From assembly GCA_013202205.1 (NCBI GenBank), contig JABMSB010000032.1, forward strand, positions 1 through 44,053: a DNA stretch of 44,053 nucleotides. The letters are read 5' to 3'. The translations under genes were made by a program, and so were the position numbers. Below are positions 2,325 through 19,686 of the stretch, piece after piece. Below the pieces are notes generated by a model. That model was not told the origin of the DNA and searched no databases. It saw only the letters and a list, made by a program, of their open reading frames with translations. Every line of letters starts with the position of its first letter. Position 1 is the first letter of the stretch. This stretch comes from Candidatus Omnitrophota bacterium. GTDB taxonomy: Bacteria > Omnitrophota > Gorgyraeia > JABMSB01.

Positions 2325-3257
2325 ATGAAGATATTGGTTACAGGAGCTGCCGGATATATAGGTTCGGTATTAGTACCTGAACTTCTAAGAGAGGGCCACG
2401 AAGTTATTGCGATCGACAACTTTATGTATAACCAAACCTCTTTGCTCGATAGCTGCCATTACGATCAACTGACTCTCCTCCGGGCAGATGCGCGCGATAG
2501 AGAATTGATGTCGAAATATATTAAGGGAGCTGATGCGATCTTTCCTTTAGCCTGTTTAACAGGCGCGCCACTCTGCTCCAAAGATCCCCATGAAGCAAGG
2601 ACGGTCAATCTCGATGCGATCAAGATGGTCGCGGATTTGCGCAGCAAGGGCCAGAAGATAATATTTCCCACCACCAACAGCGGTTATGGTGTTGGGCAAA
2701 AAGGGATTCACTGCACTGAGGAGACCCCGCTTAACCCCATATCCCTTTACGGGAAGTTAAAGCTGGAGGCAGAGAAGATCCTTCTCGATACAGGGGATTG
2801 CATTACACTGAGGCTTGCCACCGTCTTTGGAGTAAGCCCGCGCATGCGCATCGATCTCTTAGTCAATGATTTTGTTTACCGCGCCGTAACGGACAGATAT
2901 CTTGTTCTCTTCCAGGCTCACTTCAAGAGAAACTATATCCACATACGGGATGTTGCCGGGGTATTTATGCATTGTTTGAAACATTATGACGAGATGAAGG
3001 GCGGGCCATATAATGTTGGATTGAGCGATGCAAATCTGAATAAGCGGGAATTGTGCGAAGAGATAAAGAAGCAGATTCCGGACTTCTATTTTGTTGAGTC
3101 AGAAATAGGGGAGGATCCGGATAAAAGAGATTACATTGTTAGCAACGAAAAGATAGAACGCTCAGGTTTTAAACCGAGAGTCTCGCTCAGCGCAGGGATC
3201 TCCGAGCTGATAAAAGGATACCAGTCCATTAGGAAAAACCAGTTTTCCAATATTTGA
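2325..3257 (+). CDS. NAD-dependent epimerase/dehydratase (extended SDR), first gene of the glycan island
   Basis: This is an extended short-chain dehydrogenase acting on a nucleotide sugar. Visible features are the Rossmann glycine motif GAAGYIG (residues 7-13), a Ser in TTNSGYG (116-122), and the active-site Tyr142/Lys146 in SLYGKLK. The length of 310 residues is normal. A GGAGG lies about 11 bases upstream of the ATG. It is followed by a heptose-7-phosphate-kinase-like gene and a nucleotidyltransferase, so a role in making or modifying a GDP-heptose-type sugar is plausible, but the substrate cannot be read from sequence. It marks the left boundary of the glycan genes after purM. Confidence 0.85.
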   Translation: MKILVTGAAGYIGSVLVPELLREGHEVIAIDNFMYNQTSLLDSCHYDQLTLLRADARDRELMSKYIKGADAIFPLACLTGAPLCSKDPHEARTVNLDAIKMVADLRSKGQKIIFPTTNSGYGVGQKGIHCTEETPLNPISLYGKLKLEAEKILLDTGDCITLRLATVFGVSPRMRIDLLVNDFVYRAVTDRYLVLFQAHFKRNYIHIRDVAGVFMHCLKHYDEMKGGPYNVGLSDANLNKRELCEEIKKQIPDFYFVESEIGEDPDKRDYIVSNEKIERSGFKPRVSLSAGISELIKGYQSIRKNQFSNI

Positions 3258-3266: not shown

Positions 3267-4271
3267 ATGATCATAAGCAGAACCCCTTTCCGCATCTCCT
3301 TCTTCGGGGGCGGCACAGACTATCCTGTCTGGTACAAGGAGAATGGCGGAGCGGTATTGGCTACGACTATAAATAAATATTGCTATATAAGCTGTCGTTA
3401 TCTGCCGCCGTTCTTCGAGTATAAGTCCCGTATCATATGGTCCAAGATGGAAAAGATAAACCAGGTAGAAGATATCCAACATCCTTCTGTGCGGGAATGC
3501 CTGCGATTTATGAATATAGACAACGGGATAGAGGTCCATCATGACGGGGATCTTCCTGCCCGAACGGGCATGGGTTCAAGCTCAGCCTTCACAGTAGGCC
3601 TATTGCACGCGCTACATGCATTAAAAAGCAATATGCCCACAAAGAGACAACTGGCCCTTGATGCGATACACCTTGAGCAGAATGTGATGAAAGAGAATGT
3701 CGGTTCTCAGGACCAGGCGCAAGCAGCTTTTGGAGGGTTTAACTTGATAGAATTTGGAGGATCGGACCATATTCATGTCAGGCCCGTGATCCTGGAAAAG
3801 GAGAGGTTAAAGAGTTTTCAGGACCATCTCCTGCTCTTCTTTACCGGCTTTACGCGGACGGCCTCCGAAATCGCCGCAGAACAGGTAAAAGCGACTCCCC
3901 ACAAGAAGAAAGAGTTAGGCCAGATGCACGAAATGGTCTATAGGGGTTTAGATATTCTAAATAGCAAAGCAGACTTATGCGACTTTGGAAAATTGTTGCA
4001 TGAGAACTGGTTGATTAAACGCAGCTTATCAGAGAAGATATCGACGGGTATAATCGATGCGATATATTCTGCGGCAAGGGAAGAAGGCGCATTGGGCGGC
4101 AAGCTCCTTGGGGCCGGAGGCGGTGGTTTTATGATCATCTTCGCCCGCCCGGAAGATCACCCTAAAATAAAGAAGAGGTTGGACAATCTTTTGTGCGTAC
4201 CATTTCAATTCGAAACCCTCGGTAGCCAGATTATATTTTACAGTCCCGCTGATTCTTTAGTCAACATATGA
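3267..4271 (+). CDS. hddA: GHMP-family sugar kinase, D-glycero-D-manno-heptose 7-phosphate kinase-like
   Basis: The protein has the GHMP kinase N-terminus RTPFRISFFGGGTDYP (residues 5-20), the phosphate-binding motif PARTGMGSSSA (97-107) and the late GAGGGGF motif near residue 290. The opening 'RISFFGGGTDYP' block is typical of HddA and closely related fucokinase-like enzymes. HddA phosphorylates heptose 7-phosphate at C1 on the route to GDP-D-glycero-alpha-D-manno-heptose. The next gene is a matching sugar-1-phosphate nucleotidyltransferase, overlapping by four bases (ATGA). The isomerase GmhA and phosphatase GmhB that complete this pathway are not in the window. A kinase for another sugar 1-phosphate is the main alternative. 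Confidence 0.8.
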   Translation: MIISRTPFRISFFGGGTDYPVWYKENGGAVLATTINKYCYISCRYLPPFFEYKSRIIWSKMEKINQVEDIQHPSVRECLRFMNIDNGIEVHHDGDLPARTGMGSSSAFTVGLLHALHALKSNMPTKRQLALDAIHLEQNVMKENVGSQDQAQAAFGGFNLIEFGGSDHIHVRPVILEKERLKSFQDHLLLFFTGFTRTASEIAAEQVKATPHKKKELGQMHEMVYRGLDILNSKADLCDFGKLLHENWLIKRSLSEKISTGIIDAIYSAAREEGALGGKLLGAGGGGFMIIFARPEDHPKIKKRLDNLLCVPFQFETLGSQIIFYSPADSLVNI

Positions 4272-4996
4272 GGCCTCCCCTAAAAGATATAGATCTATTC
4301 ATTCTTTGCGGAGGCAAGGGCGAAAGACTTAAATCTGTAGTGGCTGACAGGCCAAAGCCAATGGCCGAAATAGAGGGAGAGCCCTTTCTCAATATCCTGA
4401 TCGATTATGCCGCGGGTTTTGGTTTTAGACGTTTCATACTGGGCATAGGCCATAAAAAAGATTTTATAAAGAATTATTATAGGGAGAATAAGACAAATCT
4501 CGATATACTCTTTTCGGAAGAGGACGAGCCCCTGGGTACGGCAGGGGCTGTAAAGAATGCCGAGAGCATTATAAAGAGTGAGCCTTTTATAGTTATGAAC
4601 GGTGATTCGTTCTGCAAGATAGACTTTAACAGGTTTATCGATTTTTATTTTGAAAGAGAAGCCTCGGTTTGTATCGCGGCCTCTTCTATGGAAGGCGGAG
4701 GCGAATTTGGGGAGATGGTTTTAGACCATGAAGAGAGAATCGTAAGCTTCAATGAGAAAGAGGAACCGAAACGCCTGCCGAGGCACCTTATAAATACAGG
4801 CATATATATCATGGACAGGGCCATCTTTGGCGATATACCTGAGGAAAAAAATATCTCTATGGAGAAGGAGATATTTCCAAATATTCTGCAAAGGGGAGTC
4901 TATGGTTTTTGTATCAGTAAAGAGTTTATAGATATAGGCACTCCCGAACGCCTGAAAAAGGCAAGGGATATAAAGAATACAAAAGGAAACTTATGA
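4268..4996 (+). CDS. hddC: Sugar-1-phosphate nucleotidyltransferase, HddC-like (D-glycero-D-manno-heptose 1-phosphate guanylyltransferase)
   Basis: This is a GT-A-like nucleotidyltransferase. It carries the LCGGKGERL nucleotide-binding motif (residues 13-21), the RPKPMAEI block and a metal-binding MNGDSF near residue 115. A length of 242 residues suits a single-domain enzyme of the HddC/RmlA-like group. It overlaps the GHMP kinase gene by four bases, and that pairing favours HddC, which activates heptose 1-phosphate with GTP. The base used (GTP, CTP or UTP) cannot be told from motifs alone. It also overlaps the next SDR gene by four bases, indicating tight translational coupling of the three. 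Confidence 0.78.
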   Translation: MRPPLKDIDLFILCGGKGERLKSVVADRPKPMAEIEGEPFLNILIDYAAGFGFRRFILGIGHKKDFIKNYYRENKTNLDILFSEEDEPLGTAGAVKNAESIIKSEPFIVMNGDSFCKIDFNRFIDFYFEREASVCIAASSMEGGGEFGEMVLDHEERIVSFNEKEEPKRLPRHLINTGIYIMDRAIFGDIPEEKNISMEKEIFPNILQRGVYGFCISKEFIDIGTPERLKKARDIKNTKGNL

Positions 4997-6012
4997 GCCA
5001 AAAATCGGATAGAGGAAAAATAAGACGGGTCTTCATCACCGGCATTGCAGGTTCGGGCGCAAGTTATCTGGCAGAGTATATATTAAAAGAGCACCCGGGG
5101 GTGGAAGTGCACGGCATATCGAGATGGCACAGCACTTCCAAGAGCGAAAATATAAAAGATATACTCGACAAAATAAGGGTGTATGAGGCCGATCTTATGG
5201 ATTTTGGATCGACCTTCGCTGTTATCAAAAAAGTCAGGCCTGATGCGGTCTTCCATTTAGCTGCGCATGCAAATGTAAGGGCATCTTTTATAACACCTGA
5301 TGTGGTCCTGAAAAATAATATCATCGGAACCTCCAACCTCTTTGAGGCGATAAGGCTTGCAGAGATCGATCCAATAATACAACTATGCAGCACTTCAGAG
5401 GTATATGGACAGGTAGATCCCAAAGATGTTCCCATCAAGGAAGATTGCCCTATGCGGCCGGTAAGTCCATATGCGGTATCAAAGACGGCACAAGACCTGC
5501 TCGGTTTTAGTTATTTTACCAGCTACCAAATGCGTATTATCCGCACACGTATGTTTACATATATCAACCCCAGGCGAGTTGATCTTTTTGCAACCTCCTT
5601 TGCAAGACAGATCGCGCTTATTGAAAGAGGTCTTCAGAAAGAGCTGGTCCATGGGAATCTGGATTCTGTACGTACGATTATAGATGTTAGAGACGCAATG
5701 AGCGCTTACTGGGAGGCGATAGTTCATTGTAAATATGGCGAAGTTTATAATATAGGGGGCACCGTCAGCTTAAAAGTCGGGGATCTCCTCAAGAAGTTAA
5801 TATCTATGAGCAGAAGCAAGATACCCACCAGATGTGACCCGGCATTGCTAAGGCCTGCGGATGTTACATTGCAGATACCATGCGTAGATAAGTTTATTAA
5901 AGAGACGGGATGGAAATCTAAGTATACCGTGGAGGAGAGTTTAGATTTTTTACTTTCTTATTGGCGGAAGAGAACTGAAAAGGAAGCAAGCCTACTCATG
6001 CAGGCAGAATAG
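4993..6012 (+). CDS. GDP-mannose 4,6-dehydratase-like SDR (possible GDP-heptose 4,6-dehydratase)
   Basis: The N-terminal glycine motif GIAGSGASYLAE (residues 17-28) follows the pattern of GDP-mannose 4,6-dehydratase (GITGQDGSYLAE in the family). The catalytic set is present as CSTSEVYG (132-139; Ser/Thr, Glu136) with Tyr160 and Lys164 in SPYAVSK. The reaction would be removal of water across C5-C6 with oxidation at C4 to give a 4-keto-6-deoxy sugar. Directly after hddA/hddC-like genes, a DmhA-type dehydratase acting on GDP-D-glycero-D-manno-heptose is an attractive reading. Ordinary GDP-mannose is the alternative and would feed the SDR and dehydratase genes at 8705-13963. Confidence 0.78.
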   Translation: MSQKSDRGKIRRVFITGIAGSGASYLAEYILKEHPGVEVHGISRWHSTSKSENIKDILDKIRVYEADLMDFGSTFAVIKKVRPDAVFHLAAHANVRASFITPDVVLKNNIIGTSNLFEAIRLAEIDPIIQLCSTSEVYGQVDPKDVPIKEDCPMRPVSPYAVSKTAQDLLGFSYFTSYQMRIIRTRMFTYINPRRVDLFATSFARQIALIERGLQKELVHGNLDSVRTIIDVRDAMSAYWEAIVHCKYGEVYNIGGTVSLKVGDLLKKLISMSRSKIPTRCDPALLRPADVTLQIPCVDKFIKETGWKSKYTVEESLDFLLSYWRKRTEKEASLLMQAE

Positions 6013-6018: not shown

Positions 6019-6723
6019 ATGAAAACAGCACTGCTTATACCGACGTTGGATGAGATAGGCGGCATGAGAGATATAATGCCGCGCATAAAAAGAGAGTGGT
6101 GTGATGAGATCATCATAGTTGACGGGGGGTCGACAGACGGCACCATAGAATACGCCAGAGAGAATGGGTACCATCTTATAAGCCAGAAAAAAAAGGGATT
6201 GAGATGTGCATATACCGAGGCGATAGACCACATAGATTCCGATGTCATTATTACCTTTAGCCCGGACGGAAATTCCATACCGGAGCTTATTCCTCCCCTG
6301 GTAGATAAGATGAAAGAGGGATATGATATGGTCGTGGTCTCACGCTATGCAGATGGGGCCAAGAGTTACGATGATGATATGATCACAGCTTTTGGAAACT
6401 GGATGTTTACCAGGCTCATAAACGTCTTGTTCAGGGCGAAATATACAGACACGTTAGTCATCTTCAGGGCCTATAAGAAGAGCCTTTTAAAGACACTGGA
6501 GCTGGATCGGGACTGCAACTATTCATTGGAAGAGAAGCTCCTGCGCACAAAGATAGGCTTAGAGCCGCTGTTGTCATTACGGTGCGCCAAAAGAAAATTA
6601 AAAGTTGCGGAGATCCCGGGAGACGAGCCCCCCAGGACCAAAGGAAGCAGAAAATTACGCGTCTTCCGTTACGGCGCTGCCCATCTTATTCAGATTTTAA
6701 GAGAATTGTTTTATTGGCGCTGA
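6019..6723 (+). CDS. Glycosyltransferase family 2 (polyprenyl/dolichyl-phosphate sugar synthase-like)
   Basis: This is a single GT-A domain of 234 residues with no membrane segment. It opens with LLIPTLDEIGG and has the nucleotide-binding IIIVDGGSTDGT motif (about residues 31-42), followed by a FSPDGNSIP stretch where DPM1-like enzymes carry their metal-binding Asp residues. The compact size and DPM1-like layout suggest transfer to a lipid carrier or a growing glycan at the inner membrane. It lies six bases after the GMD-like gene and is followed by a radical SAM gene on the same strand. The donor and acceptor are unknown. Confidence 0.82.
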   Translation: MKTALLIPTLDEIGGMRDIMPRIKREWCDEIIIVDGGSTDGTIEYARENGYHLISQKKKGLRCAYTEAIDHIDSDVIITFSPDGNSIPELIPPLVDKMKEGYDMVVVSRYADGAKSYDDDMITAFGNWMFTRLINVLFRAKYTDTLVIFRAYKKSLLKTLELDRDCNYSLEEKLLRTKIGLEPLLSLRCAKRKLKVAEIPGDEPPRTKGSRKLRVFRYGAAHLIQILRELFYWR

Positions 6724-6742: not shown

Positions 6743-8692
6743 ATGCATCTAAAAAAGAAAATAAAAGTAGGTACCGTCCAGATAAATAATAGTTTTTCCA
6801 GGCAGAGCTATTTTCCCTATTCTGTTGGGCTTCTTCAGGCTGTTGCCAGAAAATATTTAAAAGAACCGGATAGATTTGAGTTTCTCTTGCCGATCTATTC
6901 AAGGATTTCTGTCGGGAGCGCCCTTGAAAGGCTTTCGGATGCTGATATCGTAGTTTTTAGTCTATATGTATGGAATAAAGAGATCTCCCTGAGGATAGCA
7001 GAAGGGTTAAAACGAAAGAGAAAAGACCTTATCATAGTTTTTGGCGGGCCGCAGGTGCCGGAAAGGGATACCGAGTCCTTTCTGCGCTGCAATCCATTTA
7101 TTGATATAGCCTGCCATGGCGAGGGCGAAACAGTATTTACTGTTTTATTGGAGAAGTCCCTGGGGCGCAACTGGGCGGATGTCCCTTCGATAAGCTATAT
7201 CGACAAAGCAGGAAGATTTCTTCAGACTCCGCCTGGAGAAAGGATAGAGGATCTTAATAAGATCCCTTCTCCATACTTAGATGGGATCTTCGACCCCTTA
7301 ATGGATGCAAATCCTCAGGAAGGATGGGTTGCATTGTGGGAGACCAATAGAGGCTGCCCTTTTTCATGTACCTATTGCGATTGGGGTTCTGCTACAAAGG
7401 ACAAAATATATGCTTACGACATGGAAAGGCTTTTTAGGGAGATAGATTGGTTTAGCAGGAAAAGAATAGAATTTATTTTCTGCTGCGACGCTAACTTTGG
7501 CATCCTGGAGAGAGACAGTGATATTGTCAGGTATATTGTAGAACAAAAAAAACGGTTTGGTTATCCTAAGGCCTTTTCTATTCAGAATACCAAGAATTTT
7601 AAAGAATCTTTATATGAAATGTATAGCCTTCTCTCAGAAAATGGGTTAAATAAAGGCATCTCGCTCTCGTTCCAGTCTCTTAATGAGGATACACTGAGAG
7701 GTATCGGCCGTAAAAACGTATCTATCAGCAACTTTAAAGAGGTTCAGCAAAGATTGACATCTTCCAATACAGAGACCTTTACGGATATCATCCTTGGGCT
7801 GCCAAGTGAGACATATAATAGCTTTGCCGGCGGTGTCTCCTCCCTCATAGAGAACGGCCAGCACAACAGGATACAGTTCAACAATCTATCTATTCTGCCT
7901 AATACTGAAATGGGGGATGTCGAATATCAAAAAAGATTTGGTTTCGACATAGTAGAGGCAAAACTTATAAATATACACGGCAGCCTCACAGCCGATTCGG
8001 TGGAAGAGAAACAGCAATTGGTAGTCGGTACTGATACCATGCCCAAAAATGACTGGATAAGGGCAAGGGCCTTTGGATGGGCAACGGCACTTTTGCACTT
8101 TGATAAAGTTCTGCAGGTAGTTTTTGTCATTTTGAACAAACGCTATTCGATAGAATTCCGTAAGCTGATCGAGATTTTTATGGATATCGATAAGAGATAC
8201 CCTATTTTGAAATCTATCAATTCGTTTTTTATCGACAAAGCCGCTGATATCCAAAACGGCGGGTCTGAATTTTGCGAGTCAAAAGAATGGCTTAATATCT
8301 GGTGGCCTGCCGATGAATTGATATTAATAAAACTTTGCACAGAAGGTATGCTGGACGAGTTTTATAAAGAGGCCGGGTCTTTAATCGAGGATTATCTGAA
8401 AAAGAGCCATCTTTCTGAATACGAAGGCCTTCTTCACGAATCTATCCTTTTGAATAGAGAGTTGATAAAGCTGCCATTTCAGGAAGATGATAGAGATATA
8501 CATTTATCTTATAATATATGGGATGTCTATCGAGCGTTCTTAAAGGGGGCGGACACCCCGCTAAAAGAAGGTGATTATTCTTATAAAATAGACCGCACAA
8601 GCAGCAAGTGGTCCTCATGGGAAGAGTGGTGCAGAGAGGTTATATGGTATGGCAATAAGAGAGGGGTATATCTTTACAACGTAAAAAAGTAA
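6743..8692 (+). CDS. Cobalamin-binding radical SAM protein, long C-terminal extension
   Basis: This 649-residue protein has an N-terminal B12-binding-like alpha/beta domain (roughly residues 8-170, with VVFSLYVWN and IIVFGGPQVPE), then a radical SAM core with Cys205/Cys209/Cys212 in RGCPFSCTYCDWG binding the 4Fe-4S cluster. About 200 residues after the barrel form a largely helical tail I do not recognise. Class B radical SAM enzymes of this layout typically methylate unactivated carbons, though other outcomes exist. The start ATG at 6743 has only a weak ribosome binding site. Sitting among sugar genes, it may modify a glycan or lipid carrier; this is inference. It is one of three such proteins in the island. 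Confidence 0.85.
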   Translation: MHLKKKIKVGTVQINNSFSRQSYFPYSVGLLQAVARKYLKEPDRFEFLLPIYSRISVGSALERLSDADIVVFSLYVWNKEISLRIAEGLKRKRKDLIIVFGGPQVPERDTESFLRCNPFIDIACHGEGETVFTVLLEKSLGRNWADVPSISYIDKAGRFLQTPPGERIEDLNKIPSPYLDGIFDPLMDANPQEGWVALWETNRGCPFSCTYCDWGSATKDKIYAYDMERLFREIDWFSRKRIEFIFCCDANFGILERDSDIVRYIVEQKKRFGYPKAFSIQNTKNFKESLYEMYSLLSENGLNKGISLSFQSLNEDTLRGIGRKNVSISNFKEVQQRLTSSNTETFTDIILGLPSETYNSFAGGVSSLIENGQHNRIQFNNLSILPNTEMGDVEYQKRFGFDIVEAKLINIHGSLTADSVEEKQQLVVGTDTMPKNDWIRARAFGWATALLHFDKVLQVVFVILNKRYSIEFRKLIEIFMDIDKRYPILKSINSFFIDKAADIQNGGSEFCESKEWLNIWWPADELILIKLCTEGMLDEFYKEAGSLIEDYLKKSHLSEYEGLLHESILLNRELIKLPFQEDDRDIHLSYNIWDVYRAFLKGADTPLKEGDYSYKIDRTSSKWSSWEEWCREVIWYGNKRGVYLYNVKK

Positions 8693-8704: not shown

Positions 8705-9661
8705 ATGTTTTATAATAACAAAGTTGTATTGGTTACCGGCGGCACCGGATTTATAGGAGCGCATATTGTAGAGGAGCTTTTGAAGCAGGGCGCAAAGGTC
8801 CGCATCCCTGTACATAAGAGACCGATGCCTGTAGAGAATAAGAATATCGAAGTCGTTGATGCGAATCTGGCAGATAAGAGAGATTGTATGGTTGCGGCCG
8901 AAGGGGTTGATTATGTTTTTCACGCAGCCGGTTATGTGGGTGCTGCAGGCGTAACTTCAGGCCAGGTTATACTAGAGTCTATCGCAGGTAATTTCATGCT
9001 CTTATCGAATATGTTGGGAGCTGCATGGGAGAAGGGGGTTGAGAGGTTTCTTCTATTTAGCAGCAGCACCGTCTATCCCGATTTTAGGCACCCCGTCAAA
9101 GAAGAGGAGGCATGGGCCGATGCAGTCCACCCGTCCTATTTTGGCTACGGCTGGTCAAAGAGATACATCGAAAGGTTCGCTGAGTTTGTGGCATCAAAGT
9201 CAGATATGAAGATCTCTATCGTGAGGCCCACTGCTGTTTACGGCAGACTGGACAATTTTGATTTAAAGAGCTGCCATGTCATACCGGCATTAATACGAAA
9301 GGCAATAGAGAGGCAGGATCCTTATGAGGTATGGGGCAGCGGCGAAGAGGTACGTGATTTCGTTCATGTCGGCGATTTGGCGCGAGGTTCTTTATTGATG
9401 CTGGAAAAATACGCAAAGGCAGATCCCGTTAATATCGGATACGGCAAGAGCGCTACTATAAAAGAAGTTGTAGAAATAATCCTAAAGGCAGCGGATTATA
9501 AAGATGCCAGTCTTATTTTTGATACATCCAAACCTTCAACTATACCGTTTAGGGCAGTCGATACGTCAAAGGCAAAGAGGGTGTTGGGTTTTGAGCCTAT
9601 CGTCTCTTTGGAAGAAGGTTTAAGAGATACCGTTAAGTGGTATAAAGAAAGAGCTATATGA
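8705..9661 (+). CDS. GDP-L-fucose synthase-like SDR (NAD(P)-dependent epimerase/reductase)
   Basis: The protein has an N-terminal GGTGFIG motif (residues 12-18), catalytic Ser in FSSSTVY (118-124) and Tyr148/Lys152 in FGYGWSKRYIE. The block SCHVIPALIRKA followed later by VWGSGEEVRDFVHVGDLA matches the substrate-binding half of GDP-fucose synthase/GDP-4-keto-6-deoxymannose reductase. A GDP-linked 4-keto sugar is therefore the likely substrate. It overlaps the next SDR gene by four bases, and that second protein is similar overall, so the two may form a heterodimer or act in sequence. They lead directly into the E1 alpha/beta and dehydratase genes. Confidence 0.84.
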   Translation: MFYNNKVVLVTGGTGFIGAHIVEELLKQGAKVRIPVHKRPMPVENKNIEVVDANLADKRDCMVAAEGVDYVFHAAGYVGAAGVTSGQVILESIAGNFMLLSNMLGAAWEKGVERFLLFSSSTVYPDFRHPVKEEEAWADAVHPSYFGYGWSKRYIERFAEFVASKSDMKISIVRPTAVYGRLDNFDLKSCHVIPALIRKAIERQDPYEVWGSGEEVRDFVHVGDLARGSLLMLEKYAKADPVNIGYGKSATIKEVVEIILKAADYKDASLIFDTSKPSTIPFRAVDTSKAKRVLGFEPIVSLEEGLRDTVKWYKERAI

Positions 9662-10674
9662 TAAAGGAAGACGTTTTAAAAGTTTTTAGAAAAAAGAATA
9701 TTTTAGTAACAGGCGGAACAGGTCTTATCGGAAGACAGGCGGTGGATATATTATGCACCGCAGATGCTCATGTCAAGGTTGTTTCTTTGGATAATATAAG
9801 ACTCAATAAAAAAGCAGAATACAAAGTGGCAGACCTTGCGGATTTCGGTCTTTGCAAAGAAGTGACAAAAGATATGGATTTTGTTTTCCATCTGGCAGGA
9901 GTAGGCGCTTCTGTCAAGGCGGCCGAAGAAAAGATGGCCACGCATCTAGTGCCGATGTTGATGGTAAATACAAATGTATTGGAGGCATGTAGGGTGAACA
10001 GGGTCCCGAAAGTTGTCTTTACAAGCAGTGTCGGAGCCTATAGCAAAGGAGAGGTTTTTAGGGAGTCGGAGTACAGGATGGAGAGCGAGCCCCTCGATTT
10101 TGCCAGCTGGGCCAAGAGGATGGCAGAGGCTCAGATTTATGCTTATAAAGTCGAGCATGGACTTGAAAATTTTTCTATTGTCAGGCCTTCCAATGTCTAT
10201 GGGCCAGGAGACAATTTCGGAGAGGAAGGCTCTCTTGTCATCCCTTCTTTAATTTACCGTATCTGCAATAAAGAGAGACCCCTTATAGTCTGGGGGGATG
10301 GTTCAGCTATAAGGGATTTTGTCTATAGCAGGGATGTCGCAGAGGGCATCATACTCGCTCTGCATTACGGCACAAGGTCCGGATTTGTAAATCTGGGAAG
10401 CGGAAGGCCTTATTCTATCAAGGAGTTAGTGGAGACCTTGCGTACTTTTCTGGATTTTGAATATCTATTTGATGCCTCAAAGCCCACCGGCGCCAAACGC
10501 AGGGTGATGGATATTTCTCTGGCCAAAGAGTTAATACACTATAACCCTACCACGGATTTACTGGAAGGCCTTAAGAAGACATGGCAGTGGTATGAAAAAC
10601 ATCCGGATGAACATCTAAAAAAGATGAATTACTTTTCTAAGCAGAATGAGAGAGCCCATGCCCATAGATTTTGA
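9658..10674 (+). CDS. GDP-fucose synthase-like SDR lacking the catalytic Tyr
   Basis: This is a second SDR related to its upstream neighbour. It shows GGTGLIG (residues 19-25), FTSSVGAY (121-128) with the active-site Ser, and the same late pattern VIPSLIYRI...VWGDGSAIRDFVYSRDVAEG. The YxxxK motif is broken: the Lys is kept (K153) but the position four residues before it is Ala149 (context DFASWAKRMAE), where the neighbour has Tyr148. The codons are unambiguous. It may therefore be a non-reducing partner, an epimerase working by proton transfer with another residue, or a sugar-binding paralogue. It overlaps the upstream gene by four bases and the downstream E1 alpha gene by 29. Confidence 0.82.
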   Translation: MIKEDVLKVFRKKNILVTGGTGLIGRQAVDILCTADAHVKVVSLDNIRLNKKAEYKVADLADFGLCKEVTKDMDFVFHLAGVGASVKAAEEKMATHLVPMLMVNTNVLEACRVNRVPKVVFTSSVGAYSKGEVFRESEYRMESEPLDFASWAKRMAEAQIYAYKVEHGLENFSIVRPSNVYGPGDNFGEEGSLVIPSLIYRICNKERPLIVWGDGSAIRDFVYSRDVAEGIILALHYGTRSGFVNLGSGRPYSIKELVETLRTFLDFEYLFDASKPTGAKRRVMDISLAKELIHYNPTTDLLEGLKKTWQWYEKHPDEHLKKMNYFSKQNERAHAHRF

Positions 10675-11656
10675 ATCGAGCTCAAGGGACCTAGCTCCGG
10701 AATTGTCGATAGGCCTCTACAAGACGATGTTGAGGATAAGGCTTCTGCAGTCCAGGATCCGGGAGGAATACCCAAAGGATGAGATAAAGACCCCGGTACA
10801 CCTCTGCGTAGGGCAGGAGGCGATACCAGCGGGTGTGTGCGCCAACCTCAATAAAGAAGATTATGTTCTCAGTAACTACAGAGGCCATGGCCACTATCTG
10901 GCAAAAGGGGGAGACCTCAAGTCTCTGCTTGCCGAGTTATACGGCAAAAAGGCAGGTTGTTCCCGCGGAAAGGGCGGTTCAATGCACTTGGTCGATGTGG
11001 ATGCCGGGCTGCTCGGCTCCTCTTCGATAGTAGGCGGAGGGATTCCTGTCGCCACAGGCGCGGCGCTTAGCGCATCACTGCAAGAGACCGGCCGGGTAGC
11101 AGTCACTTTTTTTGGAGACGGCGCTGTAGACGAAGGAGTCTTGTATGAAAGTATCAATTTTGCCACTCTGAAAAAACTGCCTGTTATCTATATCTGCGAA
11201 AACAATTTCTACGCGGTCTGTTCTCCGCAGCGCGACAGACAGCCGTTGAATAATATATACGAGCGTTTCCAGGGGTGCGGCATACCCGGCTATAAGGCTG
11301 ATGGCAACAATGTGGCGGAGGTTTATTGCCTCTCAAAAAAGGTCATAGAAGAGGCGCGAAACGGCGCAGGCCCTTCATTTGTAGAGTTTCAGACATACAG
11401 ATGGTACGGCCACTCCGGAGGGGAGACTGACGCAGAATTGGGGTATAGGAGCAAGGAGGAATTGGAGGATTGGATCGAGAAGTGCCCCGTCAAAAATTTC
11501 GAACAATTTTTGCTGGGCAAGGGGTTAATTTCCAACGAGGATATCGCGCGCATAAGGGCAGGTTTTATGGGTGAGATAGAAGAGGCGGTCGATTTTGCCA
11601 AGGCCAGCCCGTTCCCGGACGAAAAAGAGCTATTAGACCACCTATATTACGAATAA
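10646..11656 (+). CDS. Thiamine-diphosphate-dependent dehydrogenase E1 component, alpha subunit
   Basis: This is an E1 alpha subunit of the pyruvate/acetoin/2-oxoacid dehydrogenase type. Features are SNYRGHGHYLAKG (76-88), the GKGGSMHL block (108-115), and the ThDP/Mg motif GDGAVDEG (157-164) ending in ENN (185-187). The length of 336 residues is normal for the heterotetrameric form. ATG at 10658 (MPIDFES) is an alternative start. The beta subunit follows 34 bases on, but no E2 acyltransferase or E3 is present, and the neighbours are sugar enzymes. E1 pairs freed from the complex are known to add a two-carbon unit from pyruvate to keto-sugars (aldgarose- and eurekanate-type pathways), a role that fits here by inference. 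Confidence 0.88.
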   Translation: MREPMPIDFESSSRDLAPELSIGLYKTMLRIRLLQSRIREEYPKDEIKTPVHLCVGQEAIPAGVCANLNKEDYVLSNYRGHGHYLAKGGDLKSLLAELYGKKAGCSRGKGGSMHLVDVDAGLLGSSSIVGGGIPVATGAALSASLQETGRVAVTFFGDGAVDEGVLYESINFATLKKLPVIYICENNFYAVCSPQRDRQPLNNIYERFQGCGIPGYKADGNNVAEVYCLSKKVIEEARNGAGPSFVEFQTYRWYGHSGGETDAELGYRSKEELEDWIEKCPVKNFEQFLLGKGLISNEDIARIRAGFMGEIEEAVDFAKASPFPDEKELLDHLYYE

Positions 11657-11690
11657 CCGCATCTATTATAAAAGATCAGAGAAAAAGCAT

Positions 11691-12743
11691 ATGAAGATCA
11701 GTTTTGATTGGGATAAAAAGAGTGTAGAAAAGGAAGAGCCGGGGTTTGAGCACAAGTCAAAGCCGGGCGCCAGAAAGATCAGCTATGCCTCGGCTTTATA
11801 TGAAACCTTTGACCAGCTGCTCTCACTGAACGATAAGATCTTTATCATGGGGCAGGGGGTTGATGATCCATTCGGCATGTTCGGAACGACCTTGAATTTG
11901 CATAAAAAATACGGCGCCAGGAGAGTATTCGATACCCCGCTCTCAGAAGAGGGCATGATGGGGGTTGCGTTAGGGGCTGCCCTTACAGGCATGCGTCCGA
12001 TCTATATGCATAACCGCCCGGATTTTCTACTGGTAGCCATGAATCAAATCGTGAATCACGTTTCAAAATGGAGCTATATGTTTGGGGGCGCTGTGGGTGC
12101 CCCGCTCGTTATCTGGGCCGCCATAGGCCGCGGGTGGGGTTCGGCTGCCCAACATTCCCAGAACCTTCATGGTCTATTTATGCATGTACCGGGTTTGAAA
12201 CTTGTAATGCCAAGCACGCCTTATGATGCCAAGGGGCTGCTCGTTTCCAGCGTCTTAGATCCCAATCCGGTTATGATCCTGGAACATAGATGGTTATTGA
12301 AACACAGCGGAGATGTTCCCGAAAAATTATATCAGATACCTTTGGGTAAGGGTGTTGTTAGAAAGAGCGGAAAAGACCTGACAATAGTAAGCGCCTCGTA
12401 TGCCGCCATAGAATCGATGAGGGCAGCGGAGGAGCTGAGCAAAGATGGTATCGAGGCCGAGGTTATAGACCTGAGGACGCTTCAACCTCTTGACGAGGAG
12501 ATCATTCTCGATTCCGTTAAGAAGACAGGCAGGTTGTTAGTGGTAGATACAGGCTGGAGGAGGGCTGGCGCAGCATCCGAGATATCAGCGATTGTCGCCG
12601 AGAAGGGATTCCCTTATTTAAAGAAGCCGATAAGGCGGGTCACTTCAGCGGATGTACCTACGCCGGCATGCCATACCCTGGAGAAGAGCTTCTATTTTGG
12701 CGTGAATGAAATTATCGACGCGGTAAAGGAGATGGTCAGATGA
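11691..12743 (+). CDS. Thiamine-diphosphate-dependent dehydrogenase E1 component, beta subunit
   Basis: This is the transketolase-like pyrimidine-binding half plus C-terminal domain that completes the E1 with the preceding gene. It has DTPLSEEGMMGVALGAA (81-97), in which the Glu contacts the thiamine aminopyrimidine, and the C-terminal transketolase fold with EVIDLRTLQPLDEE. The 350 residues include an N-terminal charged extension of about 28 residues relative to ordinary E1 beta proteins. Together with the alpha subunit it can decarboxylate a 2-oxoacid such as pyruvate to a ThDP-bound acyl carbanion. Without E2 in the cluster, the acceptor may be a keto-sugar. The gene overlaps the DegT-fold dehydratase gene by four bases, tying the functions together. 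Confidence 0.88.
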   Translation: MKISFDWDKKSVEKEEPGFEHKSKPGARKISYASALYETFDQLLSLNDKIFIMGQGVDDPFGMFGTTLNLHKKYGARRVFDTPLSEEGMMGVALGAALTGMRPIYMHNRPDFLLVAMNQIVNHVSKWSYMFGGAVGAPLVIWAAIGRGWGSAAQHSQNLHGLFMHVPGLKLVMPSTPYDAKGLLVSSVLDPNPVMILEHRWLLKHSGDVPEKLYQIPLGKGVVRKSGKDLTIVSASYAAIESMRAAEELSKDGIEAEVIDLRTLQPLDEEIILDSVKKTGRLLVVDTGWRRAGAASEISAIVAEKGFPYLKKPIRRVTSADVPTPACHTLEKSFYFGVNEIIDAVKEMVR

Positions 12744-13963
12744 TAGTTAAAAGAAACGGAGTGAAAAGAATCCCCTTCGGGACTATCGCCATAAACGATA
12801 CCTCCAAGAAACTCATAGAAGAAGTGCTCGATTCAAAGAGGGTTTCATGCGGCAAGTATGTAAGAGAGCTCGAAAGAAAGTTTGCCGAACTCGTCGGTAC
12901 GACTGAAGCGGTTGCAGTCAGTTCCGGGACAGACGCAGATGCCTTGGCGCTGGCAGTCCTTTACGATTTTGGCGCGAAGAGAGGCGATGAGATTATCGTT
13001 CCCGCCCTATCTTTTGTGGCTACGGGTAATGCGGTCTTGCAGGCAGGATTTACTCCGGTCTTTGTAGACATAGAGAAGGAGACGCTGAATATAAACCCCT
13101 CGATGATAGAAGGGGCTATAACAAAAAAGACCAAGGCCATAATGCCCGTCCATCTGATGGGTAAACCGGCAGATATGGATGCGATTAATGAGATCGCGAA
13201 AAGAAATAACCTCTTTGTTATCGAGGATGCCGCAGAAGCCTACGGCGCTGTATATAAAGGCAGGAATGTGGGCACATTGGGCGACATGGCTGCTTTTAGC
13301 CTATACGTGGCACATATTATAACTACGGTTGAAGGAGGGATGGTTGTTGCGGGGAGGCCGGATTTTGCAGAGGTGCTGAGGTCCCTGCGGGCTCATGGGA
13401 GGGCCTGTAAGTGCGAGACCTGCATTTTAAACGTCGGCTCGGGTTCTTGTGACAGAAGATTTAAATACGGCGATAACAGGGATATAAGATTTGTATTTGA
13501 ACGCGTAGGTTTTTCAAGCAAGATGAATGAATTAGAAGCGGCGGTCGGGCTGGGGAATATCGAAAGATACTCGCAGGTTATTAAGAGAAGACGGGAAAAT
13601 CTTTTGTATATGATAGACCGCTTTAAAGAATTCGAGCCCCACCTTTATACCATAGAAGAAGGCCCCGACGAAGAGATCGGGCCCCATGCCTTCGCAATTA
13701 TTCTAAGAGAAGGGGCCAAATTCACCAGAAACGAACTTGTATATTTTTTGGAGGAGAAGGGTATCGATAGCCGCAGCCTCTTTTCATCGATGCCTACCCA
13801 ATGCCCGGGCTTCGAATTTCTTGGGTATAATTTGGGGGATTTCCCCGGCGCGGAATATATAGGGGACAATGGATTGCATATCGGTATCCATCAGGATTTA
13901 GGAAAAGATGAACTCGATTATATTCTTGAACATGTGAAAGGGGTTATATCAAAATATGCCTAG
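12740..13963 (+). CDS. DegT-fold PLP sugar 3-dehydratase candidate (active-site Lys replaced by His)
   Basis: The fold is DegT/DnrJ/EryC1: SSGTDADALALA near 61-72, the PLP-anchoring Asp163 in IEDAAEAYG, and the block FSLYVAHIITTVEGGM (186-201). In aminotransferases this block carries the Schiff-base Lys; here that position is His192. A His at this site is the hallmark of sugar 3-dehydratases (ColD acting on GDP-4-keto-6-deoxymannose; DdhC/RfbH acting on the CDP sugar). A Cys-rich insert follows, Cys223-x-Cys225-x2-Cys228-x8-Cys237, at the place where the DdhC/RfbH group carries Fe-S ligands, though the spacing differs. I infer removal of the C3 hydroxyl of a 4-keto sugar. Simple transamination is unlikely without the Lys. 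Confidence 0.82.
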   Translation: MIVKRNGVKRIPFGTIAINDTSKKLIEEVLDSKRVSCGKYVRELERKFAELVGTTEAVAVSSGTDADALALAVLYDFGAKRGDEIIVPALSFVATGNAVLQAGFTPVFVDIEKETLNINPSMIEGAITKKTKAIMPVHLMGKPADMDAINEIAKRNNLFVIEDAAEAYGAVYKGRNVGTLGDMAAFSLYVAHIITTVEGGMVVAGRPDFAEVLRSLRAHGRACKCETCILNVGSGSCDRRFKYGDNRDIRFVFERVGFSSKMNELEAAVGLGNIERYSQVIKRRRENLLYMIDRFKEFEPHLYTIEEGPDEEIGPHAFAIILREGAKFTRNELVYFLEEKGIDSRSLFSSMPTQCPGFEFLGYNLGDFPGAEYIGDNGLHIGIHQDLGKDELDYILEHVKGVISKYA

Positions 13964-16259
13964 AAAATTTATTTATATACCTGTTTCTGTACTTATATCT
14001 GCGCTATTTCTGAAACTGCTTCATGCCCAAATAGTGGGCACCACTTTTGAGGTGGATCTTCTATGGTTCATTCCCACGGTATTTCGGGAGATAGAAGGGT
14101 TATCCTGGGTAAAATTGATCGCCTATATATTTAGGTTGTCCAATACTTGGGTCGATGTGCTAATGCTAAAGGCTTACGCGGTATTTACACTGTTACTATT
14201 TGGCCCATTGGCCAAAGATTTTGTCTTCGTTTCGATATTCTTCCATTTTTGCTGCTCCGTACTTATATCTCTTATATCCAAGAAGCTGGGCCTCGGTTCC
14301 CGCGTCAGTTTTCTATCCGGCATGATGTATTTAACACTTTTTACACATTTTGCCAGCTATACGTGGCCCATGGACTTTCAGCATCTCATACTCGTCTTTT
14401 TTATCCTGCTCGGCTTTGACTTTTATCTAAGAGTAAATCGGCGTATCGATGATGGCGGCAATTACCGCCTGCTCTTTGCCTCATTTCTATTGGTCAACCT
14501 GATCGCCTCTTTTTGCAGGGCCACGATCCTGATCTTACCAGCTATGATACTTACACATATATTGATTTGCGCAAAGGATAACAGGGAAAGGATAAGGCGA
14601 TACAATATCTTTATACCCCTCTTCATGGTCTATATGATCTATCCGGTGATTACGCTCGTCGCCGGCGATCTAAGATTTAAGAACATATTCAATATGTATG
14701 GCTCACTCTTTGTCAATAGCGGGACATCCCCCACATCTTTTTACGACTTAAGCACACTTACGAAATTCTCAATCGCCTTTTCCTTGGGAGTTTTATCCCT
14801 CTTCATCTTCAGGGCGGTATTGGTCATGCGTGATAAGCACAATTTTGGGAAGGCGTTGAAATGGATATCGATAATTGGGGCGGCATTCCTTGCGGTGATC
14901 TTAATAAAATCGGGCGGTTTCAGGAGGTTATTAATTCCGTACAACCTGCTCGTGCCTTTTGCGGGCATTCTCGCATCTTTCCTGCAGCCAATTAAAAACG
15001 CCTTATTAATTAATCCCGCAAGGCCATACCACTTTGTCCCTCTGCAGATCAGTCCTCTCACCCTTTTACTGAGCGTTCTAGTGATAGGCATATTCATAAT
15101 GAATTTTGGACGCAAAAATAAGGCATTGGCAGTGCTGGCCACTTTTTATATGATCGACCTGATCTATCTCTATTTATGGAATCCGATCAGGTCGCGGTAT
15201 TTCATCTATCTATCACCGATCTTCTGTATCGCATTTTGTACTGTATTTGATTACGCATATACTTATATGACCAGGCATATGAGGCTCAAAGTAGTGGCCA
15301 AAGAACTGATATTGGTTCTAATATTTTTGAGCTTGTGTATCCCTAATGTATTGGCAATAAAACTCGCCCTCGTTAGAGGCAGGATGGCGAATAATTTTGT
15401 AACATACAATTATCTGAGAGCGGCGGATATCATAAAGAAAGACTTGACCAAAATTGAGGGTGTCCGGGCAATAGAGAAAAAAGAACTCTATATCAATAAG
15501 TTTATGCCGCTGACCTTTACTCATGCACACACTTTCGCCAATTCCGATTCCTATAATGACAATATCCGTTTTGTCTTCATGCAGGCCTTCGACAATGCCT
15601 CCCTTGAAGTGAAATTAAATCAAACTCAGCAGGAGGGAAGAGGAGATAAGGAGGGTTATCTTTTAGACGGTTACATGGTCAAGAATGCCGATGGGGAAGA
15701 TATAAGCGAATTTTCTCAAATTTTTAAAAGGGCTCAAAAAAAGCTAAGAGCTAACCGCTACCAGGAGGCCGCTATTTTGTTCGAAGAGGCAATAGATGAG
15801 AGCCCCTTTTTGTTCGATTATGCACTGTCCGGTCTGAGGCTCGAGGATTTAGAGTGGATTACAAATGGCCAGGATATGCGCAGCTGGATCGATGAGATCG
15901 AATGCCATTATGCCATAGATTACGCAAAGAAGGAGGCTGATAGAGTCAGGCATATCTCCGCTATAATGAAAAGAGAGATCGATGAATATATTCAATGCCT
16001 CTTCTTTACCTCATTTTTGGAGTACACTTCCGGGCGTCTTGATGAGAGCAGATATCGCTTTTTCCAGATCCGATTCCTGGAAGATGATTATGATAAATTA
16101 TATCCCTGGCTGGGTGATCTGCCTCTGGTGAAATCTGACAGAAAGATCTCAGCCTTTTTAGATGGTATCGATAGCTGCTCGTTATACGACAAGCCGCATA
16201 ATTACAGAGATAGATACAAATTCGGAAAATTTCTCACTAGGCTAATATCGACGAAATGA
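13956..16259 (+). CDS. Large polytopic membrane protein with C-terminal soluble repeat-like domain
   Basis: This 767-residue protein has roughly a dozen hydrophobic segments in its first 480 residues, alternating with short basic loops, followed by about 280 soluble residues. The tail contains a helix-pair stretch (KKLRANRYQEAAILFEEAID) that looks like a tetratricopeptide-type motif. There is no clear family signature that I recognise. The membrane part resembles GT-C glycosyltransferases and glycan polymerases in general layout, and an acidic TTFEVDLLWF stretch in the first external loop would suit a catalytic Asp. It overlaps the dehydratase gene by eight bases and precedes spsF by one, so it belongs to the glycan operon. 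Polymerase or lipid-linked sugar transferase is a guess. Confidence 0.7.
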   Translation: MPRKFIYIPVSVLISALFLKLLHAQIVGTTFEVDLLWFIPTVFREIEGLSWVKLIAYIFRLSNTWVDVLMLKAYAVFTLLLFGPLAKDFVFVSIFFHFCCSVLISLISKKLGLGSRVSFLSGMMYLTLFTHFASYTWPMDFQHLILVFFILLGFDFYLRVNRRIDDGGNYRLLFASFLLVNLIASFCRATILILPAMILTHILICAKDNRERIRRYNIFIPLFMVYMIYPVITLVAGDLRFKNIFNMYGSLFVNSGTSPTSFYDLSTLTKFSIAFSLGVLSLFIFRAVLVMRDKHNFGKALKWISIIGAAFLAVILIKSGGFRRLLIPYNLLVPFAGILASFLQPIKNALLINPARPYHFVPLQISPLTLLLSVLVIGIFIMNFGRKNKALAVLATFYMIDLIYLYLWNPIRSRYFIYLSPIFCIAFCTVFDYAYTYMTRHMRLKVVAKELILVLIFLSLCIPNVLAIKLALVRGRMANNFVTYNYLRAADIIKKDLTKIEGVRAIEKKELYINKFMPLTFTHAHTFANSDSYNDNIRFVFMQAFDNASLEVKLNQTQQEGRGDKEGYLLDGYMVKNADGEDISEFSQIFKRAQKKLRANRYQEAAILFEEAIDESPFLFDYALSGLRLEDLEWITNGQDMRSWIDEIECHYAIDYAKKEADRVRHISAIMKREIDEYIQCLFFTSFLEYTSGRLDESRYRFFQIRFLEDDYDKLYPWLGDLPLVKSDRKISAFLDGIDSCSLYDKPHNYRDRYKFGKFLTRLISTK

Positions 16260-16260: not shown

Positions 16261-17037
16261 ATGAAGCTAAAGGCTATTATACAAGCTAGGGTGGGGTCGA
16301 GGAGATTGCCGGGCAAGGCATTGTTAAAAGTCCTGGATAAGACTATTTTGGAATACGTAATAGAAAGGGTGAAGAAGGCCAAGACGATAAAAGAGATAAT
16401 AATAGCAACGACGACGAAAGAAGAGGATCTGCAAATAGCCGATTTGGCAAAGAGATTGGATGTTGATCTCTTTCGTGGCTCGGAAGACGATCTTTTGGAT
16501 AGATACTATCAGGCGGCGCAGTTATTCAAAATAAAGCACGTCGTAAGAATTTGTGCTGACTGTCCTTTAATCGATCCCGATGTGATAGATGCCGCGGTAG
16601 CCCATTATTTTGAATCCGGGGCAGACTATTCTTCTAATACCGTGGAGAGGAGTTTTCCCGATGGGTTGGATGTGGAGGTATTCAGCTTCGATGCCTTAAA
16701 ATGCGCATGGGAAGAAGCAAAACTCTTATCCGAAAGGGAGCACGTTACGCCCTATATATGGAAAAATCCTGATAGGTTTAAAGTAGTCGGCCTAAAGAAT
16801 GAAAAAGATTATAGCGCTAAAAGATGGACATTAGATGAAAAAGAGGATTTCGAATTAATCAGGACTATTTTAGAGTCATTATATCCGGCCAATCCTGACT
16901 TTCGCATGAAAGATATATTGCAATTTTTACAGGCGCATCCAAAGCTGGAGGATATTAATAGCCACATTATTGTTAATGAGGGATATTTGAAGTCATTAAA
17001 AGAAGATAAAAAAGTCGAGGAAAGGGGAAGAGTATGA
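16261..17037 (+). CDS. spsF: SpsF-like cytidylyltransferase (acylneuraminate cytidylyltransferase family)
   Basis: The protein begins KAIIQARVGSRRLPGKAL, the nucleotide-binding signature of the SpsF/KdsB/NeuA cytidylyltransferase group, and has RICADCPLIDPDVID near residue 95, typical of SpsF. The length of 258 residues is normal. Enzymes of this kind activate nonulosonic acids or related sugars as CMP derivatives in spore-coat and surface-glycan clusters. The next gene, a DegT aminotransferase, overlaps by four bases, and a NeuB-fold synthase lies 2.7 kb downstream, supporting a nonulosonate-like product. The exact sugar is unknown. Confidence 0.85.
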   Translation: MKLKAIIQARVGSRRLPGKALLKVLDKTILEYVIERVKKAKTIKEIIIATTTKEEDLQIADLAKRLDVDLFRGSEDDLLDRYYQAAQLFKIKHVVRICADCPLIDPDVIDAAVAHYFESGADYSSNTVERSFPDGLDVEVFSFDALKCAWEEAKLLSEREHVTPYIWKNPDRFKVVGLKNEKDYSAKRWTLDEKEDFELIRTILESLYPANPDFRMKDILQFLQAHPKLEDINSHIIVNEGYLKSLKEDKKVEERGRV

Positions 17038-18008: not shown

Positions 18009-18011
18009 AAA

Positions 18012-18956: not shown

Positions 18957-18960
18957 TATT

Positions 18961-19686
18961 ATGGAAATAGATAAAGACATTCTGACTGTAGTCATACCTT
19001 GTTATAATGCAGGAGAATTTATTGAAGATTGCCTTGGTTCTTTACTGCGCCAAAAGGTCAAATCTCTTTATAAGATATTGTTTATCAACGATGCCTCAAC
19101 GGACGATTCTTTAGAAAGGGCAAAGAGGAAGACTGGGGCCCTGGCCAATGTCACCTTTTTAGAGCATGAGACAACCCAAGGCCTTGTAAAATGCTGTAAC
19201 AAAGCCCTGTCTTTAATAGATACCCCTTATTTTGTCCGCTTAGATGCAGATGATTATTTTTCACCCGATGCCATAGAAAAGATCTTCGAAGAGATAAATT
19301 CTCCCATCAAGAACGATTTTGTAATCTTTAAAAGATGGGATATCTTGAACGATGGAATAAAAGAAATCGAATCGGACAGTGACATATATGCCTGGATTGC
19401 CGCAGGCACCCTATTTAGCACTGATGCCGTCAAATCGGTCAAGGGATATAGCAAGCAGTACTGGGAGGAATTCGACCTTTATCTAAAGCTTCTTGAAACA
19501 AAGCATAGCTTTGGCAGCTCTCCCTATCGCATCTATTATTATCGCCGCAACTCAGGGAGCATGACAAAGAATCTTGAAGAAAATAGAGCGGGATTTAAGA
19601 GGTTATTGGAAAAATGGGGCGGGGATACCTTAAAAAAATACGGTGATTTTAAGAAAGCGGCAGACTATTATGGGGTTAAAAGTTAG
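18961..19686 (+). CDS. Glycosyltransferase family 2
   Basis: This is a GT-A domain of 241 residues with the opening VVIPCYNAGEFIEDCL, nucleotide-binding FINDASTDDS and the DxD motif in RLDADDYF (about residue 85). It ends soon after the catalytic domain with no membrane segment, so it is a cytosolic, membrane-peripheral transferase. It begins four bases after the epimerase stop and is followed by a NeuB-fold synthase, so it may transfer the sugar made by that module. The gene has no strong Shine-Dalgarno and probably depends on coupling. Confidence 0.84.
   Translation: MEIDKDILTVVIPCYNAGEFIEDCLGSLLRQKVKSLYKILFINDASTDDSLERAKRKTGALANVTFLEHETTQGLVKCCNKALSLIDTPYFVRLDADDYFSPDAIEKIFEEINSPIKNDFVIFKRWDILNDGIKEIESDSDIYAWIAAGTLFSTDAVKSVKGYSKQYWEEFDLYLKLLETKHSFGSSPYRIYYYRRNSGSMTKNLEENRAGFKRLLEKWGGDTLKKYGDFKKAADYYGVKS

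Follow-up and report, generated by a model that had tools for sequence, protein, structure and literature searches.

The stretch analyzed here (the window; 44,053 nucleotides, contig JABMSB010000032.1 of the Candidatus Omnitrophota bacterium assembly GCA_013202205.1) carries at 8705-13963 a unit of five open reading frames (ORFs), all on one strand, encoding two short-chain dehydrogenases/reductases (SDR1 and SDR2), the alpha and beta subunits of a thiamine diphosphate (ThDP)-dependent E1 component, and a DegT-fold enzyme with His at the position of the pyridoxal phosphate (PLP)-binding Lys. The five genes are overlapping or closely spaced, as stated in a preliminary description of this DNA, with gaps of -4, -29, +34 (the largest) and -4 bases. 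Together with the genes immediately upstream (Table 1), this unit probably, though by no means certainly, forms a surface-glycan cassette for a GDP-linked, C3-deoxygenated and two-carbon-branched heptose.

Table 1. Genes of the predicted cassette, with positions in the window
Predicted product	Position	Strand	Match or feature
SDR0, Cj1427-like GDP-heptose C4-dehydrogenase	2325..3257	+	PDB 6vo6
Heptose-kinase (HddA) homologue	3267..4271	+	PDB 3k85, 4usm/4usk, 4n3o; NF049969
HddC-like sugar-1-phosphate (guanylyl)transferase	4268..4996	+	NF049965
GDP-heptose 4,6-dehydratase (DdahA-like) homologue	4993..6012	+	PDB 7us5
GT2 glycosyltransferase	6019..6723	+	PF00535
B12-dependent radical SAM protein, KedN5-like	6743..8692	+	NF033712, 267 bits (under cut-off 700)
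SDR1, reductase candidate	8705..9661	+	DdahC-type Thr/His dyad; GDPFucSynFcl, 166 bits
SDR2, GDP-fucose-synthase-like SDR	9658..10674	+	without catalytic Tyr or epimerase dyad; GDPFucSynFcl, 130 bits
E1 alpha-type ThDP subunit, putative sugar carboligase	10646..11656	+	PF00676 (E1_dh), 238 bits
E1 beta-type ThDP subunit	11691..12743	+	Transket_pyr + Transketolase_C
His-type DegT, putative GDP-4-keto-heptose C3-dehydratase	12740..13963	+	His192

The replacement of the PLP Lys by His in the DegT-fold enzyme, noted at the outset, was confirmed, and the dehydratase giving a 3-deoxy sugar that had been proposed from it is supported. The residue aligned to the PLP lysine, His192, is invariant in all 75 close homologues, and the nearest solved relatives of the His type are RfbH/E1 (270 bits) and ColD (255 bits), which supports C3-deoxygenation as the predicted reaction. 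A structure search with the AlphaFold model (pLDDT 83) did not discriminate further, since the fold is common to aminotransferases, RfbH and ColD. The enzyme carries an RfbH-like Cys loop, CxCx2Cx8C, in which we looked for the [2Fe-2S] pattern of RfbH, taken by us to be C-X57-C-X1-C-X7-C. An RfbH-type Fe-S enzyme was ruled out because the position of the distant Cys is occupied by Ala and the loop itself is missing in 19 of the 75 relatives.

The activated sugar is, judging from the flanking genes, very probably GDP-D-glycero-D-manno-heptose and not a hexose, because the flanks carry a Cj1427-like C4-dehydrogenase, HddA and HddC homologues and a homologue of GDP-heptose 4,6-dehydratase. SDR0, a gene absent from the preliminary description, is the best-supported route to the 4-ketone: it matches 6vo6 over the full length with 395.6 bits (E=1.3e-117), the next unrelated match reaching 95 bits. 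We take 6vo6, deposited under the title 'putative sugar-nucleotide epimerase', to be the Cj1427 structure of Huddleston and Holden, with which the reference list of PMC10680097 agrees. Two of the top PDB matches of the HddA homologue carry heptose-kinase names, and the top-scoring NCBIfam models of the two activating enzymes are those of HddA (136 bits, under the equivalog cut-off of 600) and HddC (158 bits, under the cut-off of 300). GmhA and GmhB homologues are encoded elsewhere in the same genome (C68 and C39, respectively). The gene at 4993, described earlier as that of a GDP-mannose dehydratase (GMD)-like enzyme, is better regarded as a homologue of GDP-D-glycero-D-manno-heptose 4,6-dehydratase (7us5, 182 bits), with which it shares the stretches S(S/T)SEVYG, PRRxD(V/L)F and KQIALIExG. 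The reductase 2pk3 scores slightly higher (189 bits) but lacks the PRRxD(V/L)F stretch, and assignment as a 4-keto reductase was set aside because the motifs were judged, short of proof, to be nearer to heptose 4,6-dehydratase. The GDP linkage proposed earlier as a possibility is supported. In Campylobacter jejuni, Cj1427, the biochemistry of which is described in PMC10680097, or a 4,6-dehydratase acts before a PLP-dependent C3-dehydratase to give GDP-3-deoxy- or GDP-3,6-dideoxy-4-keto-heptose (PMC10680097, PMC10440746), and homologues of each of these activities are encoded in the window.

A hexose pathway, in which a GMD-type enzyme would dehydrate GDP-mannose before ColD-fashion deoxygenation and branching, as a GDP version of yersiniose synthesis, is unlikely. 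The DegT enzyme resembles ColD and RfbH, which are both hexose enzymes, and mannose-1-phosphate guanylyltransferase genes are present at 9 of the loci described below, but such a pathway would leave unaccounted for the match of SDR0 to Cj1427, the PRRxD(V/L)F and KQIALIExG stretches, the recurrence of HddA/HddC-type kinase and guanylyltransferase, and the HddC-GmhB fusion of Azospirillum lipoferum.

The DegT sequence of the window was scanned against 84,980 species genomes, and 75 close relatives (45-76% identity in the ORF comparison) were detected in about a dozen phyla, including Omnitrophota, Elusimicrobiota, Planctomycetota, Nitrospirota, Myxococcota, Thermodesulfobacteriota, Chloroflexota and Auribacterota, as well as in candidate-phyla-radiation bins and a Woesearchaeota bin; single odd assignments could be mis-binning, as the hosts are mostly metagenome-assembled genomes. 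The genes found with these 75 DegT genes encode HddA (57), HddC (59), SDR0 (41), a B12 radical S-adenosylmethionine (SAM) protein (41) and a GDP-fucose-synthase-like SDR, SDR5 (35). Two layouts were recognized: the first, with the 4,6-dehydratase homologue, SDR1/2-like genes and the KedN5-like radical SAM protein, is that of the window and of loci L043, L047, L054 and L096 (related layouts in L063, L075 and L086), and the second carries SDR5 and a different B12 radical SAM protein. Relatives of the GT2 enzyme with 49-65% identity lie at several of the loci, and those of the radical SAM protein, for which a role in C-methylation is possible, in L047, L054, L075 and L096. L-2-hydroxyglutarate oxidase homologues were found in L054 (966-2186, beside the HddA gene) and L130 (21388-22590), and could recycle 2-hydroxyglutarate from the Cj1427-type dehydrogenase, for which a ping-pong oxidation of GDP-heptose dependent on alpha-ketoglutarate would be expected; as support for Cj1427 chemistry they are suggestive at most, being limited to two cassettes, one of them without detected SDR0.

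Of the His-DegT loci, 37 are flanked by 7.5 kb or more of known sequence on each side, and 29 of these encode a two-subunit ThDP enzyme: 20 have an E1 pair (one together with a split transketolase), 6 have only a split transketolase and 3 have a truncated E1 pair. As controls we used 20 distant DegT loci from the same class (12 RfbH-like of the His type, the others Lys aminotransferases by the residue aligned to His192), in none of which an E1 pair or a complete split transketolase was present, one carrying a lone transketolase N-domain gene. The difference, 29/37 vs 0/20, gives p=2.6e-9 by Fisher's test, a value that overstates independence because the loci share ancestry. The three kinds of ThDP enzyme are, however, distinct, and their syntenic position is the same, as is seen by comparison of HddA-HddC-rSAM-(rSAM)-E1a-E1b-DegT-SDR5 in L042 with HddA-HddC-rSAM-miniE1-DegT-SDR5 in L122 (rSAM, radical SAM; miniE1, truncated E1). 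The truncated pairs (L122, 8987-10125; L126; L088; L093) consist of E1 alpha-like proteins of about 200 residues and Transket_pyr proteins of 178 residues, and match E1_dh and Transket_pyr without a C-terminal transketolase domain. The association of genes is far above chance and recurs in dozens of genomes, but the unit that recurs is a cassette of roughly ten genes with an exchangeable ThDP pair, of which the five-gene order described first is a part.

The E1 alpha and beta proteins of the window are both complete, as described earlier, with E1_dh, Transket_pyr and Transketolase_C domains and conserved catalytic ThDP/active-site residues. No match to the E2 family (PF00198) was found anywhere in the host genome (92% complete), while the identical search was positive in 10 of 14 control genomes. 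The earlier statement that E2 and E3 are both missing therefore stands in full for E2; for E3 it holds in the window and fails in the genome, where one lipoamide-dehydrogenase homologue lies at C59 (above the TIGR01350 cut-off; the neighbouring ORF reads as lipB). Within 292 genomes of the host class, E1 alpha was detected in 68 and E2 in 26, both being present in 8, so that 60 of the 68 lack E2. In a tree of E1 alpha sequences, E2-linked proteins encoded on plasmids group in one clade (100/99) and the window protein falls in another (100/99); of the 17 rows in the latter, 15 are labelled as His-DegT cassettes (including L157, with its DegT gene about 24 kb away). A second E1 alpha/beta pair of the host genome (C51; L128, 7374-9341) is of the E2-linked phylogenetic type and falls inside the E2-linked clade, likewise with no E2 in the genome. 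In E1 beta, residues D59, H107, R109, W149, R200 and Y335 are each present in 49 or 50 of 50 E2-independent proteins, whereas H107, R109, W149, R200 and Y335 are found in 0 of 8 E2-linked proteins, which points to a functional subfamily. One E2-independent branch (L043, L047, L054, L063, L096 and Azospirillum L239) has a conserved C-terminal extension ending in F(K/R)GPF, while in another branch the extension is N-terminal, with the sequence (M)PW(T/S). The absence of E2, the E1 alpha tree and the E1 beta residues all support the earlier view that the window pair lies outside any 2-oxoacid dehydrogenase complex.

Two cultured bacteria carry related clusters. On plasmid pDMC1 of Solidesulfovibrio magneticus RS-1, the genes for a radical SAM protein, a NUDIX protein, HddA, E1 alpha, E1 beta, SDR5, DegT, SDR0 and HddC are consecutive, and those for the second of the two L-2-hydroxyglutarate oxidase homologues mentioned above and for a SIS-domain protein lie a few kb beyond this compact cassette. 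Plasmid AZO_p6 of A. lipoferum 4B encodes a GmhA-like SIS protein, the HddC-GmhB fusion, a Cj1427-like SDR with 59% identity to SDR0, an E1 pair (AZOLI_RS29255/29260), and a His-DegT that is ColD-like and shares only 32% identity with the window enzyme. No E2 gene was found in either cluster. The A. lipoferum cluster is a second set of enzymes, assembled independently but with the same predicted functions, and we regard it as the strongest argument for the pathway.

The two SDRs of the unit had been described as GDP-fucose-synthase-like, and GDP-fucose synthase is indeed the best NCBIfam model for both, which diverge from it with scores far under its cut-off of 500 (Table 1). SDR1 has Thr/His in place of the Cys/His dyad (Cys109/His179), as does DdahC of C. 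jejuni, which reduces heptose at C4 but has no epimerase activity (PMC7949155). In SDR2 the dyad is replaced by Gly/Leu and YxxxK by FAsWAKRM, with loss of the catalytic Tyr. The closest relatives of SDR2 in other cassettes likewise lack this Tyr, and SDR2 may not act as an ordinary redox SDR. With the dyad lost in both, GDP-L-fucose synthase activity was ruled out. Elsewhere in the window, a 767-residue protein at 13956-16259 is membrane-protein-like by sequence and gives no Pfam match, with a 49% identical relative near the L042 cassette. The separate module at 16261-20502, with a CMP-Kdo-synthetase-like protein, a Lys-type DegT, an SDR, a GT2 enzyme and a NeuB-family protein, suggests a nonulosonic-acid-like sugar. 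Three B12-binding radical SAM proteins are encoded in the one glycan locus of the window (6743-8692, 20499-22088 and 31733-33163).

From these findings we propose the following pathway. GDP-heptose would be supplied by the HddA/HddC homologues together with GmhA and GmhB from elsewhere in the genome, and would be oxidized at C4 by SDR0 and/or converted to the 6-deoxy-4-keto form by the 4,6-dehydratase homologue. The His-type DegT would then remove the C3 hydroxyl by pyridoxamine phosphate-dependent dehydration, giving GDP-3-deoxy- or GDP-3,6-dideoxy-4-keto-heptose, both already produced in vitro with Campylobacter enzymes (PMC10680097, PMC10440746); the published [M-H]- values are 634.08 for GDP-heptose and 616.08 for the 3-deoxy-4-keto form. 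In the step that would be new, the E1 pair is predicted to decarboxylate pyruvate or a close 2-oxo acid and to pass the two-carbon unit from ThDP on to the ketone at C4, giving a tertiary alcohol with an acetyl branch. The ketone of the branch would be reduced by SDR1, a methyl group may be added by the radical SAM protein, and glycosyltransferases would use the product, most likely a 3-deoxy (or 3,6-dideoxy) 4-C-branched GDP-heptose. Gene content, residue conservation, co-occurrence and the absence of E2 come from the sequences, and C4-oxidation, 4,6-dehydration and C3-dehydration of GDP-heptose, as well as two-carbon branching by E1 pairs with pyruvate, from literature on homologues; for the window pathway we infer pyruvate as the donor, C4 as the site and SDR1 as the branch reductase.

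Several points weigh against this pathway. Its activity and product are predictions, the HddA and HddC homologues both score under the equivalog cut-offs, the radical SAM proteins are left unexplained by it, and 8 of the 37 well-flanked loci carry no ThDP gene nearby. Many cassettes retain SDR5, a possible C4-reductase, which would be pointless in this role because C4 would become a tertiary alcohol. Two E1 beta proteins of Streptomyces plasmids carry D59, H107, R109, W149 and R200, so that the subfamily residues are no proof of a sugar acceptor; the annotated one of the two belongs to an E1 pair on pSGRIFU1 of S. griseofuscus (L236, 8986-11032), which has most of the glycan-type residues but no evident sugar genes in its cluster. 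Related E1 pairs also occur without His-DegT in Omnitrophota glycan clusters (L164-L168, L171, L172, L174, L178, L179), where a radical-SAM-looking family flanks the pair on both sides and putative GT9-like and GT2 genes are present, and the E1 subfamily is therefore not specific to 3-deoxy sugars. Near E1 pairs with HldE-like, SIS and SDR genes (L170 and L177, also L164 and L183), a protein of about 600 residues looks like acetolactate synthase and is possibly a second ThDP branching enzyme of those clusters.

It is conceivable, though rather unlikely, that the E1 pair attaches its two-carbon unit differently, either at a keto group of the sugar other than C4 or on a lipid or side chain that has no connection with the 3-deoxy sugar. 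The occurrence of related E1 pairs in other glycan clusters, beside radical SAM and GT9 genes or beside HldE-like genes, would fit this, as would the S. griseofuscus pair, which adjoins a condensation-domain protein and gamma-butyrolactone regulators in a cluster with acyl carrier protein genes, and the published branching by E1 pairs, which is described both at C3 and in octoses branched at C4 (PMC12247030, PMC4753412). Against it, the E1 alpha clade of the window consists almost wholly of His-DegT cassettes, and the enzymes present would yield a C4 ketone. That the ThDP enzyme acts upstream, supplying sedoheptulose-7-phosphate for GDP-heptose and leaving an unbranched 3-deoxyheptose as the end sugar, appears quite unlikely. 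Split transketolases do stand in for the E1 pair at several loci, and the transketolase of ordinary metabolism makes sedoheptulose-7-phosphate, but the host has its own split transketolase at C13, ketose-phosphate synthesis is not known for E1 pairs, and the ThDP pair goes together with the C3-dehydratase, whereas no dedicated ThDP gene is required for heptose synthesis in Campylobacter (PMC10680097). Finally, the pair might be the E1 of a conventional pyruvate, acetoin or branched-chain dehydrogenase whose E2 lies in the 8% of the genome left unassembled. The lpdA homologue and the adjoining lipB-like ORF would agree with this, but it is largely refuted and very improbable in view of the E2 searches in the genome, the class and the clusters of the two cultured hosts, the separate place of the protein in the E1 alpha tree and the differing E1 beta residues.

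Every chemical step of the proposed branched-heptose pathway has a known relative. To our knowledge, ThDP-dependent branching of GDP-3-deoxy-4-keto-heptoses is undescribed. In the open-access literature we found nothing relevant on branched GDP-heptose or on branched sugars of Azospirillum, nor the combination of a GDP-heptose acceptor, a surface glycan, three exchangeable ThDP modules and a wide range of phyla. The pathway would join two chemistries not combined before, the GDP-heptose modification of Campylobacter and the ThDP-dependent two-carbon branching of keto sugars, and would make a branched heptose widespread in the cell envelopes of lineages that are mostly uncultured (Omnitrophota, Elusimicrobiota, Planctomycetota and others). 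Branching by E1 pairs and split transketolases would thereby shift from antibiotic clusters to surface glycans, and the enzymes would be new catalysts for chiral tertiary alcohols. More tentatively, a class of nine-carbon surface sugars not described before, 3-deoxy-4-C-(two-carbon)-heptoses made as GDP derivatives, may exist in about a dozen bacterial and archaeal phyla, with E1 pairs (acetyl-derived branch), split transketolases (glycolyl-derived branch) and truncated E1 pairs, which lack the C-terminal domain, as interchangeable modules. The pathway is directly testable, since two cultured hosts (S. magneticus RS-1 and A. lipoferum 4B) are available and the in vitro substrate is already in use.

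Among known systems, the GDP-heptose pathways of C. jejuni share with the window GDP-D-glycero-D-manno-heptose, the C4-ketone formed by a Cj1427-type enzyme or a 4,6-dehydratase, and a PLP-dependent C3-dehydratase of the ColD kind (PMC10680097, PMC10440746), but they finish with C4-reduction, and a ThDP gene is not described for them. Identity to ColD-type enzymes is about 31-32% for the window DegT and 62-67% for the C. jejuni enzymes; with ColD and RfbH (E1) the window enzyme shares the DegT fold with His for Lys, and with RfbH the Cys loop, at 30-34% identity and with a different spacing of the loop. In yersiniose A synthesis, 3-deoxygenation is likewise followed by ThDP-dependent two-carbon addition at C4 of a 4-keto-3,6-dideoxy sugar, but YerE acts on a CDP-hexose and is a single-chain flavoprotein decarboxylase of the acetolactate-synthase type, whereas the window encodes an E1 alpha/beta pair. 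A review records lipopolysaccharide branching only for YerE-like enzymes, and E1 pairs and transketolases only in secondary metabolites (PMC12247030). The split-gene transketolases of miharamycin and amipurimycin resemble the split enzymes that replace the E1 pair in several cassettes, being also encoded beside keto-sugar genes, but are reported only from streptomycetes and are uncharacterized (PMC12247030). A further likeness is to the alpha-keto-acid-dehydrogenase-type (alphaKADH2) E1 pairs of aldgamycin, kosinostatin, kibdelomycin and avilamycin synthesis, E1 alpha/beta heteromers outside any dehydrogenase complex that branch keto sugars with two carbons from pyruvate (PMC12247030, PMC4753412), albeit in antibiotic pathways and not in those of cell-surface heptoses. 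The window pair has the gene-level features of this group, both E1 subunits being encoded with their ThDP/active-site residues intact while E2 is absent, in support of the precedent invoked in the preliminary description and of the prediction that it is a real analogue of alphaKADH2 sugar branching (PMC12247030).

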